In this document: in pieces, positions 4,957 through 22,190 of the stretch | Numbering within the stretch: position 1 is the first letter of the stretch | Layout: each line of letters starts with the position of its first letter | IMG/VR virus record: IMGVR_UViG_3300035703_002597 | Location: 1 to 22,918 of that record | Direction: 5' to 3' (one strand) | DNA: 22,918 bases | DNA from: a virus | Program-made: the position numbers and the translations under genes | The notes under the pieces: generated by a model | Database searches by the model: none | What the model was told of the DNA's origin: nothing | What the model saw: only the letters and a program-made list of their open reading frames with translations

Positions 4957-5745
4957 ATGAATATAGGTGTAATTGGAGTGGGTGTTGTTGGTAGTGCAAT
5001 TAAATTTGGATTTGAAAGATTAGGACACGATGTTTTTATACATGATGTGAAGTATGATACTTCTATTTTAGACGTAATTAACACTGAAGTATGTTATATC
5101 TGTGTCCCAACTCCATCTGATAAAGATGGTAGTTGTAACATTAAAATAGTAGAAGACGTTATTGATGATTTAGTAAAAAATTCTTATAACGGTATTATTG
5201 CAATTAAGTCTACAGTAATACCTGGAACTACAGAAAAACTTATTTCAAAATATGAAAATCTGGCTTTTGTTCCAGAGTTTTTGCGAGAGAGATGTGCTAT
5301 TTCTGATTTTATTCAAAATCATGAAGTCTGCGTGATTGGTACTCATTCTCAAAAAATTTTTGAAATCATTAAATCTAGTCATGGTAATTTTCCTAAAGAA
5401 TTTGTAATGTGTACTCCAACTGAAGCGGAATTCAGCAAGTATTTTCATAACGTTCATAATGCAATGCAGATTATACTTGCTAACAGTTTTTATGAAGTTT
5501 GCAGTAAAATGGGAGTAAATTATGAAAATGTAAAAGATTCTTTAAAAAATAGGAGCAATATTAATTTCACATATTTAAATTGTAATAAAAATTTTAGAGG
5601 ATTCGGGGGAGTTTGCCTTCCAAAAGACACTGCAGCAATGGATTATTTGTGTAAAAAATTAAATCTAGATGTTGAATTTTTTAAAAACATTTTAGATGAA
5701 AATTCAAAATATGTTACAACTGTTCCAAATGGAATGAGAATATGA
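4957..5745 (+). CDS. Short UDP-glucose/GDP-mannose dehydrogenase-family protein
   Basis: 262 residues against about 390-450 for typical UDP-glucose 6-dehydrogenases. The Rossmann loop GVGVVG (7-12), STVIPGTT (85-92), PEFLRER with E107, EFSKYFHN with K161 and N165, and the active-site GGVCLPKD with C220 are all present. The C-terminal UDP-sugar-binding domain is missing: the protein ends about 40 residues after the catalytic cysteine. The family oxidises the C6 alcohol of a nucleotide sugar to the uronic acid with two NAD+. Without the C-terminal domain the substrate or oligomer may differ. The ATG has a good AGAGGA site, and the stop overlaps the next ATG by four bases. A second, apparently standard dehydrogenase begins at 22187. 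Confidence 0.8.
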   Translation: MNIGVIGVGVVGSAIKFGFERLGHDVFIHDVKYDTSILDVINTEVCYICVPTPSDKDGSCNIKIVEDVIDDLVKNSYNGIIAIKSTVIPGTTEKLISKYENLAFVPEFLRERCAISDFIQNHEVCVIGTHSQKIFEIIKSSHGNFPKEFVMCTPTEAEFSKYFHNVHNAMQIILANSFYEVCSKMGVNYENVKDSLKNRSNINFTYLNCNKNFRGFGGVCLPKDTAAMDYLCKKLNLDVEFFKNILDENSKYVTTVPNGMRI

Positions 5746-6675: not shown

Positions 6676-7104
6676 ATGAAATTAATCTATTCCAAAGTAG
6701 AACCAGAAAAACTACTTCATATCGTCTATCGTTATTCTGAAATTAATGAACGGACTGATATTGCTCCAGAAAATCAATTTTTACAATTGTCAAGTATTAA
6801 ACAAAACAAAGGTAAAAAATATAGAGCACATGAACATATTTGGAAAGAACCAAAATATGAAAAAGTAATAGCTCAAGAATCTTGGGTAGTAATTGATGGT
6901 TCTGTAAAAGTTTACATGTACGATTTGGATGGGTCTCTTCTAAATGAAGACATTATTACTAGAGGAGATTGTTCTGTTACTTTTGAAGCGGGACATAACT
7001 ATGAAATAATGGAAGATAATACTATTGTTTATGAATACAAAACTGGACCTTACGAAGGTGTTAAAAATGATAAAGTATTCTTCGATGAAAAGTACGGGAA
7101 TTGA
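6676..7104 (+). CDS. Cupin-fold protein of surface-glycan clusters
   Basis: 142 residues. The middle has the conserved cupin pattern: RAHEHIW (metal-type histidines), then VVIDGSVKVYMYD and RGDCSVTFEAGHNYEIM, ending in a TGPYEG block. Cupins in such clusters include dTDP-sugar 3,4-ketoisomerases (FdtA/QdtA), epimerases and small metal-binding proteins of uncertain role. Here the N-terminus does not look like FdtA, so ketoisomerase activity is only a possibility. It precedes an acyltransferase and an aminotransferase gene, an order that would fit N-acylated amino-sugar synthesis. The next gene starts 20 bases before its end. Confidence 0.6.
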   Translation: MKLIYSKVEPEKLLHIVYRYSEINERTDIAPENQFLQLSSIKQNKGKKYRAHEHIWKEPKYEKVIAQESWVVIDGSVKVYMYDLDGSLLNEDIITRGDCSVTFEAGHNYEIMEDNTIVYEYKTGPYEGVKNDKVFFDEKYGN

Positions 7105-7615
7105 TGTTTGTATAGATGAAATATCCAGAATAACTAGACCAAACTTGGTTGAAATTGGAAATCATGTTGCTATTGATTTTGGATTTGTCTGCACTACACA
7201 ATTAAAAATAGGGGATTATGTTCATATATCACCTCATGTTTCTGTCATTGGTGGTGCTCATGGTAAATTAGAAGTTGAAGATTTTTGTTTTATTTCTACA
7301 GGAGCAAGAGTGATTTGCTCTTCTGAGAAATTTATGGGTGATGGATTGGTTGGACCATTTATACCTGAAGAATGCAAAGATATTATCCTTCGGGGAACAG
7401 TAAAACTCGAAAGATTTTCTGGAATGTGTGCAAATTCTATAATAATGCCAGGTGTTACCTTAGCAGAAGGATCTGTGTTAGGTGCTAATTCTTTTCTTAA
7501 AGAATCGACAGAACCTTGGGGAATTTATGCGGGTAGCCCTGCTAAGTTGATTAAAAAGAGAAGAAGTGATATAATTTATAATAATGCTAAAAAAATGGGA
7601 TATGTTTATGAGTAA
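7085..7615 (+). CDS. Hexapeptide-repeat acyltransferase
   Basis: 176 residues from ATG 7085 (MKSTGIDVCIDEIS); an in-frame ATG at 7067 and an earlier one at 7025 would only extend it into the preceding gene. The protein is built of left-handed beta-helix repeats: VEIGNHVAID, LKIGDYVHIS, VSVIGGAHGK, SIIMPGVTLAEGSVLGANS, then the typical AGSPAKLIKKR exit. Such enzymes transfer acetyl or other acyl groups from acyl-CoA to sugars. A loop around residues 85-105 (FMGDGLVGPFIPEE) resembles the acceptor loop of maltose/galactoside acetyltransferases. With the adjacent aminotransferase it could N-acylate an amino sugar; O-acylation is equally possible. Confidence 0.8.
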   Translation: MKSTGIDVCIDEISRITRPNLVEIGNHVAIDFGFVCTTQLKIGDYVHISPHVSVIGGAHGKLEVEDFCFISTGARVICSSEKFMGDGLVGPFIPEECKDIILRGTVKLERFSGMCANSIIMPGVTLAEGSVLGANSFLKESTEPWGIYAGSPAKLIKKRRSDIIYNNAKKMGYVYE

Positions 7616-8201
7616 CTTTGATGTAGTCACTGAGCTTGAATCTAAAGTTGCAGAATTTTTTGGATCTCCATATGCTGTTGCCGTTGATTGTTGCACTCAT
7701 GGAGTTGAACTGTGTCTTCGATATGAAAATGTAAAGAAAATTACGGTCCCAGTGAGAACTTATATTTCTATTCCTTTTCTCGCTACAAAACTTAATTTGG
7801 AGTGGGAGTGGGACGAGACCGTATGGGATGATTATTATTACTTAGGTGATACAAAAATTATTGATGCTGCTGTTCTTTGGAAAAAAAATAGTTATATTCC
7901 AAAAACTTATATGTCTCTTAGTTTTCAATTTCAAAAGCATTTAAGCCTTGGTAGGGGTGGAATGATTTTATTAGATGACTTGGATGCTAAAAATGCTCTT
8001 AAAAAAATGTCATATGATGGTAGGGAGCATGGTATTCCATGGAGAACTCAAAATATAAGTACCATGGGATATCATTATTATATGACCCCAGAAACAGCAC
8101 AGTTAGGGTTGGATAAACTAGATGCTGCTATAAATTCAGAACCTAGAAAATGGGTTTACACTGATTGGCCAGATTTAAGAGAAATGGACGTATTCAAATG
8201 A
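7608..8201 (+). CDS. Compact DegT/DnrJ-type PLP aminotransferase
   Basis: 197 residues from ATG 7608 (GGGA at 7597-7600 upstream), about half the usual 370-400. The large-domain landmarks are kept in order: FFGSPYAVAVDCCTHG near the cofactor phosphate site, IIDAAV with D86 where the PLP-ring Asp lies, SLSFQFQKHLSLGRGG with K110 as the PLP lysine, GREHG, and MTPETAQLGLDKL in place of the usual MSELQAALG motif. Everything after that, the whole small domain, is absent. The family transfers an amino group from glutamate to a 3- or 4-keto nucleotide sugar. A second protein with the same compact layout lies at 15587-16621, so this is not a simple truncation. It starts before the acyltransferase gene ends and its stop overlaps the next ATG. 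Confidence 0.72.
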   Translation: MSNFDVVTELESKVAEFFGSPYAVAVDCCTHGVELCLRYENVKKITVPVRTYISIPFLATKLNLEWEWDETVWDDYYYLGDTKIIDAAVLWKKNSYIPKTYMSLSFQFQKHLSLGRGGMILLDDLDAKNALKKMSYDGREHGIPWRTQNISTMGYHYYMTPETAQLGLDKLDAAINSEPRKWVYTDWPDLREMDVFK

Positions 8202-14234: not shown

Positions 14235-14769
14235 TACTACATCAAGGAAAAAGTTTGTTGCTTCGTTTCCTGATTCTTTTTTAACAGGCGCAGAAGTTGG
14301 AGTTTCAAGTGGTGATTTTTCAAAAAATATTTTGTCAGTCACTAAAAATATAAAGTTGTATTGTGTTGATATTTGGGAGCAAAATTATCAACTACCCGAT
14401 CCCGAAAGATCATATAATGAAACTTATAACAATCTTATTCCTTTTGGGCAAGAAAGATTTGAATTGATTAGAGAGGGATCTCCAAATTCTGCCTCAAAAT
14501 TTGAAGATGAATTTTTTGACTTCGTTTATATTGATGCGGACCATCATTATGAACCGGTTTTGGAAGACCTCAAAGCTTGGTATCCAAAAATTAAAAAAGG
14601 TGGTGTATTCTTTGGACACGATTATAATAGTCCTTGGGACGGGGTAGTTAAAGCTGTTGATGAATTTTTTGCAGAAAAAAATTATGAAGTTGGAGTAATT
14701 TCTTCGGTTGGTTATGCTGATGGAGATCAAGATGGTGGATCTCAGAGTTGGTACATTATTAAGAGGTAA
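14227..14769 (+). CDS. Class I SAM-dependent methyltransferase (Methyltransf_24-like)
   Basis: 180 residues from ATG 14227, chosen because AAGGAG (14214-14219) is seven bases upstream; in-frame ATGs at 14188 and 14221 fit less well. Motif I is GAEVGVSSGDFS, then YCVDIW, then the family block DFVYIDADHHYEPVLEDL, and GGVFFGHDY. Such enzymes methylate hydroxyls, often of sugars or macrocycles. The aspartates and HH pair of YIDADHHY could bind a metal. A second methyltransferase beside the FkbM-type one suggests a glycan with two methylated positions. Confidence 0.75.
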   Translation: MFDTTSRKKFVASFPDSFLTGAEVGVSSGDFSKNILSVTKNIKLYCVDIWEQNYQLPDPERSYNETYNNLIPFGQERFELIREGSPNSASKFEDEFFDFVYIDADHHYEPVLEDLKAWYPKIKKGGVFFGHDYNSPWDGVVKAVDEFFAEKNYEVGVISSVGYADGDQDGGSQSWYIIKR

Positions 14770-14779
14770 TTGGAATAAG

Positions 14780-15583
14780 ATGATTGAACACGATTATTTA
14801 AAAGATTTTGATAAATTAAAGTCAAAATTAATCGAAGGGGAAAACTTTGCTTTTTTAAGATTTTCTGATGGTGAAGGATTTATTCTTTACAACCAATACT
14901 TAGAGTTAAGTGACAGTGGATACAATTTAGATGGATCTCGTGGATATGCTTATTATGGAAAAGAAGAACATAAATTATTCGATCCAGATAAGCATTCATT
15001 TTATAGGGATAGGTTGATTGAGTCTTTGGAGTATGTTAGTGATAACTACTACAAAGGTCTTCCTATGAAGGATGCCTGCCCTGCTTTTAGTGGAATTTTT
15101 GATGAGATTGTTGAAAATGCAGGTGGGGATAGTGAATATTTAACTTTTGCTAATCTTTGGAATAATGCAAACTATCCAAGATTTATTGAGGAAATTGTGC
15201 CAATTTTTTCTGATAAAAAAGTTGTGATGATTGTGAATGAGTGTGCTGACATTGAGAAGTTACCATTTCCAGTTGTGAAGGATTTTAGAGTCGGATCTAA
15301 CTGTTTTATTGATAACTATGATATAATAGATGATATTAAAACTTATGTAACTGATAACGACATCAAAAATCATGTCTTTCTAGTTTCAGCAGCTAGTCTA
15401 AGCAATGTGATTATTCATCAATTGTATGAAATGAATAATCAAAATACTTATATTGATATTGGTAGCACACTTAATCCAATGATGAATATGACTGGTTGGA
15501 AGGGAACTAGAGTTTACTTAAATCAATATTGGAATCCTAGTGGAGACCAATCTCAATTAAAACTTGTAGATATTTGGCATTAA
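14780..15583 (+). CDS. Probable GT-D-fold glycosyltransferase
   Basis: 267 residues from ATG 14780; an upstream in-frame ATG at 14708 would overlap the methyltransferase gene by 62 bases and is not favoured. Near the N-terminus FAFLRFSDGEGFI (23-35) matches the R-[FY]-x-DGE signature of GT-D enzymes, where the Asp-x-Glu (D30, E32) binds metal and the sugar nucleotide. VVMIVNE and VFLVSAASLSN look like the later strands of that fold, and YIDIGSTLNP is near the C-terminus as in the family. The assignment is by motif only. It is followed two bases later by the GNAT-aminotransferase fusion gene. Confidence 0.6.
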   Translation: MIEHDYLKDFDKLKSKLIEGENFAFLRFSDGEGFILYNQYLELSDSGYNLDGSRGYAYYGKEEHKLFDPDKHSFYRDRLIESLEYVSDNYYKGLPMKDACPAFSGIFDEIVENAGGDSEYLTFANLWNNANYPRFIEEIVPIFSDKKVVMIVNECADIEKLPFPVVKDFRVGSNCFIDNYDIIDDIKTYVTDNDIKNHVFLVSAASLSNVIIHQLYEMNNQNTYIDIGSTLNPMMNMTGWKGTRVYLNQYWNPSGDQSQLKLVDIWH

Positions 15584-15586
15584 TTT

Positions 15587-16621
15587 ATGAAACTGATACC
15601 TAACAATCAAGAACATTGGCAGTTTATTCGAGAACTTAGATACCATCCTAAAAATATTTCTGGATTTGTAACTTCTGATAAAGTTACTTATGAAGAGCAA
15701 ATAGAATATATGAAAAAATATAATGACAATTATTATATTTGTTTAGATGGAAATAATACTCCTGTGGGATTCATTGGAGAAATTGGTGGTGATATTCGTT
15801 TAGCTGTAGACCCAGAACAAAAAAATAAAGGTATTGGTAAATTTATGTTGGATGAGTTTATGAAGACTCATCCATTTGCGACTGCCAAAGTTTTGCATGA
15901 TAATATAGCAAGTCTCAGAACATTTTATTCTTGTGGATTCATTTCTCACAAATTTGATGGAACGTTTTTTTATCTTACAAAAAATGAGCACGGATATTAT
16001 AAAATCAAACATAATCCATATAAAATTGTAAGAATGTTTGAAGAATCTATAGCTGATTATACAGGAGCTCCTTATGCAGTATCTGTAGATTCTTGTACAA
16101 ATGCACTGTTTTTATGTTGTAAGTATTTAAATGTCGCGCAGGTTTCTATTCCCTCTAAAACATACTTATCAGTTCCACAATCAATTATTCAATCTGGTGG
16201 TACTGTTGTTTGGGATGAGAGTAGAAATAATTGGACAGGCACATATCAATTAGAACCTTATCCTATTTGGGACTCTGCTAAAAGATTAACGTCGAGTATG
16301 TATATTCCAGGATCTTTTATGTGCCTGTCATTTCATATTAAAAAAACCTTGAAAATTGGAAAGGGTGGTATGATTTTGACAGATAATCCAGATGCTGTAG
16401 ATTGGTTTAAGAAATCTAGGTATGAAGGTAGAAGTGAAGTTTTATATAAGGAAGACAATATTAAAACAATAGGATGGAATATGTATATGACACCACAACA
16501 AGCCGCACATGGTCTTTGTTTATTGCAAAATTATCCTTTACATGTTCCTGATCTTGGTGAAGATAATGGATATTTAGATTTGAGGAATTATGATTTATTT
16601 TCTGAAATTGGTGCAGTATGA
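15587..16621 (+). CDS. GNAT acetyltransferase fused to a compact DegT-type aminotransferase
   Basis: 344 residues in two parts. Residues 1-130 are a GNAT N-acyltransferase: RLAVDPEQKNKGIGKFML (71-88) is the acetyl-CoA loop and SLRTFYSCGF (109-118) the usual C-terminal motif. Residues 145-344 resemble the compact aminotransferase at 7608: YTGAPYAVSVDSCTNA, WDSA with D229, SFHIKKTLKIGKGG with PLP lysine K253, YEGRSE, and MTPQQAAHGL. The small domain is again missing. One polypeptide could aminate a keto-sugar and then N-acylate it, a pairing seen as separate enzymes in amino-sugar pathways. It overlaps rmlB by four bases, which supplies a 4-keto sugar. Confidence 0.78.
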   Translation: MKLIPNNQEHWQFIRELRYHPKNISGFVTSDKVTYEEQIEYMKKYNDNYYICLDGNNTPVGFIGEIGGDIRLAVDPEQKNKGIGKFMLDEFMKTHPFATAKVLHDNIASLRTFYSCGFISHKFDGTFFYLTKNEHGYYKIKHNPYKIVRMFEESIADYTGAPYAVSVDSCTNALFLCCKYLNVAQVSIPSKTYLSVPQSIIQSGGTVVWDESRNNWTGTYQLEPYPIWDSAKRLTSSMYIPGSFMCLSFHIKKTLKIGKGGMILTDNPDAVDWFKKSRYEGRSEVLYKEDNIKTIGWNMYMTPQQAAHGLCLLQNYPLHVPDLGEDNGYLDLRNYDLFSEIGAV

Positions 16622-17508
16622 AATTTTTAGTTACTGGTGGTAGAGGTTTTATAGGAAGTCATTTTGTTGAACGTTGTTTGGATGAAGGGCATAAAGTTAT
16701 AGATATTGATTCTGTAACTTATGCTGCTAACGAAAAACTTCCTTGGGATAATCATAAAAATTATAAACATGTAAAAGAAGACATATGTGATTTAAAACAT
16801 TTACCATCTGCAGATATTTTGGTTAATTTTGCTGCTGAAAGTCATGTTGATAATTCTATTATTCAACCCAATATTTTTGTAAAGACTAATGTGCTAGGTA
16901 CACAAAATCTTCTAAATTTAGTTAGAGGTAAAACTTATAATAGACCTTTATTTGTTCATATAAGCACTGATGAAGTTTATGGTGATATTGTTAACGGTTC
17001 TTTTGATGAGAATAGTAAATTATCACCTTCTAATCCATACTCAGCATCAAAAGCTGCGGCGGAGATGTTAGTTGTTTCTTATGCTAGAACTTATCAGATG
17101 GAGTATCAAATTTGTAGAAGTTCTAATAATTATGGTGCTAGACAATATCCAGAAAAACTTATTCCGAAAATTATAGAATGTTTGGAAGAGAATAAATCAA
17201 TACCAATTCATGGTGATGGATCTTATGTAAGAGATTGGACATATGTAAAAGATAATGTAGATGGAATTTATAAGGTTTGTTTTTCTGAAGAAAAAAATGA
17301 AGTATGGAATATATCATCTAATAATTGTTTAAGTAATTTGCAGGTAGTTGATTTTGTATCAAAATGGATGAATAAGACTCCAAAAGTAGATTTTATTGAG
17401 AATAGACATGGACAAGATATTCGATATTCAATTTCTTCTAGTAAAATTATTGAAAAATTGCAATGGAATCCTGAGCATAAATCCCTCTACAATTTCACCT
17501 CTAAATAA
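16618..17508 (+). CDS. rmlB: dTDP-glucose 4,6-dehydratase
   Basis: 296 residues (family about 330-355). The dehydratase marks are clear: TGGRGFIG (7-14), DSVTYAAN, NFAAESHVDNSI, HISTDEVYGD with T117, D118 and E119, YSASKAA with Y141 and K145, SSNNYGARQYPEKLIP and a C-terminal RHGQDIRY block. It converts dTDP-glucose to dTDP-4-keto-6-deoxyglucose with bound NAD+, the branch point to rhamnose, Qui3N/Fuc3N, Qui4N and related sugars. The C-terminal region is somewhat short. It follows the GNAT-aminotransferase by a four-base overlap. No rmlC or rmlD is seen, which favours an amino-sugar product over rhamnose. Confidence 0.9.
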   Translation: MKFLVTGGRGFIGSHFVERCLDEGHKVIDIDSVTYAANEKLPWDNHKNYKHVKEDICDLKHLPSADILVNFAAESHVDNSIIQPNIFVKTNVLGTQNLLNLVRGKTYNRPLFVHISTDEVYGDIVNGSFDENSKLSPSNPYSASKAAAEMLVVSYARTYQMEYQICRSSNNYGARQYPEKLIPKIIECLEENKSIPIHGDGSYVRDWTYVKDNVDGIYKVCFSEEKNEVWNISSNNCLSNLQVVDFVSKWMNKTPKVDFIENRHGQDIRYSISSSKIIEKLQWNPEHKSLYNFTSK

Positions 17509-21434: not shown

Positions 21435-22190
21435 ATGAATAGAATTTTAGATTATTTTACTCTAAAAAATAGAGTTGTAACTTGGATTAAAGACTACGCT
21501 AAATCTAATAATATTAAATCACTTGTAGTAGGTATTTCTGGAGGTATTGATTCTTCAGTTGTATCTACTCTTTGTGCTGAAACGGGATTGCCAACCTATG
21601 TTTTGTCAATGCCTCTGAATCAGATTCAATCACAATCCGATCTTTCTGATGTTCATAGAAAATTTCTTTCTGACAAATATGAAAATGTAATTCCTATGAA
21701 AATCGATCTTTCATCTGTTTATGAGCAGTTTGTAAAGAGCACTAAGTTTTGGTTAGGTGATGAGTATGGAGAATCGAAGCATTCTCTTGCAAATACAAAA
21801 TCACGTATTCGTATGGTAACTCTATATCAAGTTGCTGGGGATGTTGGTGGTATTGTTGTGGGAACAGGTAATAAAGTTGAAGATTATGGTGTTGGATTCT
21901 ATACTAAATATGGTGATGGGGGAGTTGATATTGCTCCTATTGCAGATCTTTATAAAACTGAAGTATGGGAACTTGGAAAGCATCTTGGTGTAGATCAACG
22001 TATTATTGATGCACAACCTACAGATGGTCTCTGGGAAGACGGAAGAACTGATGAAGATCAGATTGGAGTTTCTTATGCTGAACTTGAAGAAGCAATGGAA
22101 AATGGGACTGGACCAGCAGTTAAAATTTTGGCAAAGTTCAATTCTCAAAATCAACATAAAATGAATTCTATTCCTACGTTTAAACTATGA
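21435..22190 (+). CDS. nadE: NH3-dependent NAD+ synthetase
   Basis: 251 residues (E. coli NadE 275). The ATP-pyrophosphatase loop SGGIDSS is at 35-41, followed by LSMPLNQ. VVGTGNKVEDYGVGFYTKYGDGGVDIAPIADLYKT spans the deamido-NAD and ATP binding block with the invariant TKYGDGG, and QPTDGLWEDGRTDEDQIG matches the P2-type region. There is no glutaminase domain, so ammonia is the nitrogen source. It makes NAD+ from nicotinate adenine dinucleotide in the cytoplasm. It has a near-consensus promoter of its own and overlaps the next gene, an NAD+-using sugar dehydrogenase, by four bases. Apparently complete and functional. Confidence 0.93.
   Translation: MNRILDYFTLKNRVVTWIKDYAKSNNIKSLVVGISGGIDSSVVSTLCAETGLPTYVLSMPLNQIQSQSDLSDVHRKFLSDKYENVIPMKIDLSSVYEQFVKSTKFWLGDEYGESKHSLANTKSRIRMVTLYQVAGDVGGIVVGTGNKVEDYGVGFYTKYGDGGVDIAPIADLYKTEVWELGKHLGVDQRIIDAQPTDGLWEDGRTDEDQIGVSYAELEEAMENGTGPAVKILAKFNSQNQHKMNSIPTFKL

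Follow-up and report, generated by a model that had tools for sequence, protein, structure and literature searches.

The closest described systems to the one considered here aminate a keto-sugar and then acetylate the resulting amine. In E. coli, WecE and then WecD aminate and acetylate dTDP-4-keto-6-deoxyglucose, following the action of RmlA and RmlB (PMC7439462), and in Mimivirus the amination and N-acetylation for viosamine are provided by L136 and L142 (PMC9614988). A literature search, itself incomplete in its coverage, found no example of a DegT domain fused to an acetyltransferase.

Just such a fusion is present in the window, a term used here for the whole stretch of viral DNA that was analysed (22,918 nucleotides, positions 1 to 22,918 of IMG/VR record IMGVR_UViG_3300035703_002597). 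Given the presence of this GNAT-DegT fusion, and of the same parts as neighbouring genes in many related phages, the virus probably encodes the two final steps towards an N-acetylated amino sugar.

The fusion gene

Positions 15587-16621 (+ strand) form an uninterrupted ORF that translates to 344 aa and starts 3 bases past the end of the upstream gene. The GNAT domain (residues 1-131; 15587..15979, + strand) was identified from Pfam (PF00583 at residues 34-118, scoring 25.4 bits against a cut-off of 20.7), from alignment A1, and from a search of the PDB with a profile of this half, for which the best match was PseH (4xpk, E 1.9e-7). It contains an acetyl-CoA P-loop-type motif, QKNKGIG, at residues 78-84 (15818-15838); this conforms to the Q/RxxGxG/A type, and G82 and G84 of its KGIG portion are invariant in alignment A1. 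There follow a short, disordered linker (residues 132-144; 15980..16018, + strand) and a compact DegT-type PLP aminotransferase domain (residues 145-344 plus the stop; 16019..16621, + strand), the latter recognised by phmmer, alignment A6, the structural model and Pfam (PF01041, 72.8 bits against a cut-off of 19.8, in two stretches of which the first covers 145-209).

Folding made use of alignments A3 and A6 (A4 and A5 were excluded, as they placed stand-alone GNATs in the wrong columns). The AlphaFold model of the whole protein has a mean pLDDT of 92.3 with values below 50 solely at residues 135-139, although the whole-protein pTM of 0.62 means that the relative placement of the two domains in the model should not be relied upon. 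An earlier note on this DNA had described a GNAT domain joined, through a linker near residues 131-145, to a compact aminotransferase similar to the 7608 protein. That description holds up well: both Pfam domains score above cut-off and the fusion recurs in other contigs (see below), the poorly modelled residues all lie inside the range given for the linker, and the 7608 protein is indeed a homologous compact DegT protein, with 37% identity. What the note had not anticipated is that the two-gene form is the usual one, that most of the C-terminal domain of the aminotransferase is missing, and that elsewhere a hexapeptide acyltransferase or a formyltransferase takes the place of the GNAT.

Acyltransferase partners and proposed function

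Once loci picked solely through the GNAT profile are set aside, 95 compact DegT genes remain, and 49 of these have an acyltransferase as direct neighbour (GNAT in 27 cases, hexapeptide in 17, formyltransferase in 7). Shuffling the gene order gave an expectation of 13.8 +/- 3.3, and none of 2000 shuffles reached 49. One query included the GNAT half and may have inflated the GNAT count, but the excess of hexapeptide (17 against 7.2 expected) and formyltransferase neighbours (7 against 1.9 expected) is independent of that query. In the cultured Flavobacterium phage immuto, for instance, the compact DegT gene overlaps a gene for an acetyltransferase of the NeuD/PglB/VioB family. Similarly, the window itself has a second compact DegT protein, of SFQFQK type (7584..8201, + strand; likely start 7602 or later), which is a paralogue of the C-terminal half of the fusion, and its gene is overlapped by one for a hexapeptide acyltransferase (7025..7615, + strand; ORF start uncertain) that matches PF00132 and the NeuD-family model TIGR03570. 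This excess of acyltransferase neighbours supports amination followed by N-acylation of a nucleotide keto-sugar, as carried out by WecE/WecD or PseC/PseH.

From the families to which the two halves belong, we infer the reactions, their order and the likely substrate, together with the amino donor and the fate of the sugar. The DegT half, with PLP on K253, would transfer an amino group, probably from glutamate, to the keto carbon of a nucleotide-activated 4-keto-6-deoxyhexose, most likely supplied by an RmlB-type 4,6-dehydratase (here the next gene), and the GNAT half would then acetylate the resulting amine using acetyl-CoA. The product, an NDP-4-acylamino-4,6-dideoxyhexose, would pass to the phage glycosyltransferases; the fusion would keep the two activities in a fixed ratio and might possibly hand the amine on from one to the other. 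That the gene encodes a bifunctional enzyme catalysing both amination and N-acetylation is, taken as a whole, a reading to which we incline with some reserve. Against it stand the stretches that the aminotransferase has lost, the equivalog scores far under cut-off, the 7 of 15 related records with no strong RmlB match, the restriction of rmlB adjacency to the window, and the compact DegT genes of cells that have no recognised acyltransferase beside them (each described below). The connection to N-acyl amino-sugar synthesis made in the earlier note is supported by the retention of key motifs in both domains and by purifying selection, and its functional reading is plausible.

Directly upstream of the fusion is a gene for a putative GT-D-like glycosyltransferase (14708..15583, + strand), a homologue of which is found in the same position in 61 of 77 pairs, the family match being a weak one. 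Other gene arrangements were seen in the window and in related loci. One locus has a GNAT fused to a formyltransferase domain (PF00551; L099:6001-6996) directly 5' of a compact DegT gene, so that a single protein offers two possible N-acyl groups; another has a GNAT of this kind joined to a methyltransferase (PF13578; L043:4723-6381), again directly 5' of a compact DegT gene; and on a Neomarinimicrobiota contig a protein combining a weakly WecD-like N-terminal part with a MaoC domain (L165:6660-7790) is encoded directly upstream of a compact DegT. At 6676-8201 of the window, genes for a WbuC-like cupin, the hexapeptide acyltransferase and the second compact DegT protein are consecutive; L188 (Neomarinimicrobiota) and the fused-gene locus L010 have similar clusters, made up of cupin, compact DegT and GMD-like genes. 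Elsewhere in the window, a nucleotide-sugar dehydrogenase homologue (4957-5745) has 262 aa as against the 413 positions of TIGR03026, its C-terminal part apparently being missing, and an ORF within the glycan cluster (21435-22190) resembles NAD synthetase, with a NadE-type SGGIDSS motif and relatives in about 10 loci. Finally, L003:2386-3759 encodes a HAD-type hydrolase, the C-terminal part of which resembles a sugar nucleotidyltransferase and which has relatives in about 24 loci.

Source and identity of the keto-sugar

The gene following the fusion (16618..17508, + strand) encodes an RmlB-like 4,6-dehydratase with TDEVYG and YSASK motifs, scoring 318.4 bits against TIGR01181, which is below the equivalog cut-off of 365.1. 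The two genes share the four bases ATGA at 16618, exactly the overlap with rmlB that the earlier note had reported and had linked to supply of the keto-sugar. As regards position this link is peculiar to the window: of 124 SFH-type compact DegT genes, just this one directly adjoins an RmlB-like gene, which rules out a conserved rmlB adjacency. What does survive is a linkage at the level of the genome, since strong RmlB homologues (E<=1e-86) are present in 8 of 15 large related phage records, the other 7 (some of which may, like any of the 15, be fragments) having no strong match. In the record that includes L004, RmlA lies next to RmlB.

RmlC had no match in the 15 large related records, which argues against use of RmlB for rhamnose, and the failure to match FdtA in 16 records (possibly incomplete ones) weakens the case for a 3-amino route. 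A nonulosonate pathway, leading to pseudaminic or legionaminic acid, was a candidate in view of the best-scoring models for the fusion, PseC, LegC and PseH, each of which it matches well under the equivalog cut-off (PseC, TIGR03588, 41.2 bits against 423.5; PseH, TIGR03585, 13.7 bits against 93.1; LegC also far under). NeuB, however, had no match in the 15 large related records, nor did PseB have any over its cut-off in the large related records, so that a full nonulosonate route is not seen there. Taken together, RmlB in 8 of 15 records, RmlA beside RmlB, and no match to RmlC, NeuB or FdtA in the records searched fit a dTDP-4-amino-4,6-dideoxyhexose; a UDP sugar, as in Mimivirus (PMC9614988), would also be compatible with the sequence.

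This last point leads on to the most serious of the alternatives, namely that the same amination and N-acylation take place on a different ketone, which could be a keto-sugar carried on UDP or GDP, a precursor of nonulosonates or an aminocyclitol-like compound, and that rmlB is adjacent only by chance. The nearest relatives of the two halves lend this some weight, in that the GNAT profile is closest to PseH and the best NCBIfam model for the DegT half is PseC, both of them UDP-sugar enzymes, as does the patchy distribution of RmlB just described. GDP-mannose-dehydratase-like genes adjoin the SFQ-type compact DegT relatives in 4 of 8 cases, and WecB-type epimerase genes are frequently found close to compact DegT genes in phage loci. 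There is also a cyanophage locus (L194, Synechococcus phage S-SCSM2R, PQ898602.1, 957-9665) in which a compact DegT gene is accompanied by genes for a radical-SAM protein, a 2OG-Fe(II) oxygenase and a glycosyltransferase and by an annotated inosamine amidinotransferase gene, a set that hints at some unusual sugar or cyclitol carrying an amino group. Set against these are the NeuB and PseB results and the observation in the window of just a single dehydratase-type SDR with a TDEVYG motif, and on balance we regard a different substrate as improbable, if well worth bearing in mind.

The compact aminotransferase domain

At about 200 aa, the DegT half departs from the usual architecture of its family (two domains, ~360 aa, with a C-terminal domain). 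Aligned with perosamine synthase, it is some 42 residues shorter in the middle of the domain and stops where most of the C-terminal domain would come; since its solved relatives have both of these stretches, substrate binding should not be taken for granted. By sequence alignment it nonetheless has both the Schiff-base Lys and the cofactor-activating Asp: phmmer places K253 (codon 16343-16345) opposite the Lys that is catalytic in GDP-perosamine synthase (the title of entry 3dr4 names a K186A mutant), and D229 (codon 16271-16273) and S248 accompany it (in domain numbering these three are K115, D91 and S110). Their equivalents are invariant in all 53 members of alignment A6, a diverse set from phages, bacteria and one archaeon, extending down to 37% identity, every one of which matches PF01041.

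Modelled alone as a single chain, the domain gave a pLDDT of 95.6 and a pTM of 0.92, and the top Foldseek match was GDP-perosamine synthase (3dr7, E 1.1e-11). Sugar aminotransferases and near relatives of the same family make up the structural matches listed, among them 7b0d (VIA Z 20.3, rmsd 2.6, 200 aligned), 3dr7 (Z 19.8, rmsd 2.7, 201 aligned), WecE 4piw (Z 18.9, rmsd 2.6, 195 aligned) and PseC 2fn6 (Z 18.2, rmsd 2.8, 202 aligned); matches within 1 Z of one another are effectively tied, so structure does not pick out a substrate.

Since the compact half has lost the C-terminal domain and some of its core, the question arises whether it is a transaminase at all: it might bind PLP or sugar but act as a dehydrase, a scaffold or the partner of a full-length DegT, leaving the GNAT half alone as catalytic, and phage immuto does also have a full-length DegT about 3 kb away. 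In the window, on the other hand, no full-length DegT was seen, selection on the domain is strong, and the three invariant residues include the Lys that holds PLP and the Ser that binds phosphate, besides the Asp. Sugar 3-dehydrases such as ColD have His in place of the Lys. A non-catalytic or non-transaminating role therefore seems to us decidedly unlikely.

Compact DegT genes are not confined to viruses: one is surrounded by ordinary chromosomal genes on a Sediminibacterium contig of 377 kb, and others come from records of Prochlorococcus and Woesearchaeota. Some of the cellular examples have no recognised acyltransferase neighbour; a plasmid search returned distant matches to the full family only. 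A more far-reaching proposal would be that these proteins represent an undescribed but widespread class of minimal sugar aminotransferase of about 200 residues, in which the place of the C-terminal domain is taken by a partner N-acyltransferase, be it of GNAT, hexapeptide or formyltransferase type, that completes or caps the active site, fusions simply freezing this complex in one chain. This is doubtful, and is put forward very tentatively. The compact aminotransferase family with its interchangeable acyltransferase partners is, all the same, a stronger finding than the fusion itself.

Split and fused forms

Using profiles of each half, 79 distinct pairs of GNAT and compact DegT were gathered, of which 60 are adjacent, 14 lie within 3 kb of each other and 5 are fused; roughly half of the loci were fetched by the GNAT query, so that as a sample of compact DegT genes these 79 are biased. 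Where the two ORFs are adjacent, an overlap of a few bases is common. The fusion is thus a rare, covalent version of a conserved and common two-gene module. A tree built from the two domains requires three switches between the split and the fused state, at least two of them forced by well-supported branches (fused L005, for example, clusters with split L086); as the three may include losses of fusion, the safe statement is that there were at least two events.

The same fusion occurs in contigs from other metagenomes, with identities of 83% (L003), 81% (L004), 56% (L005) and 54% (L010/L011). Comparing the window with L003 and L004, the differences in both domains, and in the conserved 13-residue linker, are mostly synonymous; dN/dS is 0.08-0.17 for the GNAT and 0.05-0.09 for the DegT domain (rough figures, as dS is high), and both halves are under purifying selection. 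That the fusion might be an assembly or sequencing artefact joining two genes is accordingly not a credible reading, even though most relatives are split and in 7 of the adjacent pairs little more than a single stop codon parts two genes that share a reading frame. The independent contigs L003 and L004 have the same fusion with synonymous differences, L005 and L010 are fused as well and do not form one clade with that of the window, and the sequencing error that the earlier note had itself raised as a possible objection fails on the same grounds.

Comparison with known systems

If the proposed function is correct, the genomes of many aquatic phages specify the two final reactions leading to an N-acylated amino sugar, and such phages could build glycans that the host may lack, with consequences for superinfection, receptors or virions. 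The compact domain would then be an unusually small sugar aminotransferase, showing what portions of the DegT fold are required for catalysis, while the existence of three interchangeable partner families suggests a route by which phages might swap acetyl for formyl on surface sugars.

Among known systems, WecE/WecD shows the same succession of a DegT aminotransferase and a GNAT; WecE (4piw) is a structural match, and WecB-type genes are common in the phage loci. These are, however, separate proteins, WecE (~375 aa) includes a C-terminal domain, the GNAT of WecD is longer and made of two parts, and the fusion scores only 23.8 bits against the WecE model (PRK11706; equivalog cut-off 375). PseC and PseH of pseudaminic acid synthesis are likewise a consecutive aminotransferase and GNAT, acting on a UDP sugar, and provide the best family and PDB matches of the two halves, but they too are separate, PseC is full-length, and the large related records gave no NeuB match and no PseB match over the cut-off. 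GDP-perosamine synthase with an N-acetyltransferase resembles the present case through the top Foldseek match and through the GMD-like genes that adjoin SFQ-type compact DegT genes, yet the synthase is a two-domain protein of ~370 aa and the fusion gene is not near a GMD gene. The R141-L136-L142 set of Mimivirus is similar in being a virus-encoded dehydratase, DegT-type aminotransferase and N-acetyltransferase (PMC9614988); there L136 is full-length, and the PglB-like acetyltransferase is joined to a glycosyltransferase domain instead of to the aminotransferase. A possible parallel fusion, known here by structure match only, is the giant-virus (Solumvirus) protein A0A3G5AKE8 (569 aa), which is named for a PglD N-terminal (acetyltransferase-type) domain and matches the fused model. 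Viewed against all of these, the fusion system is a variant of known sugar-nucleotide enzymes rather than a new kind of system.
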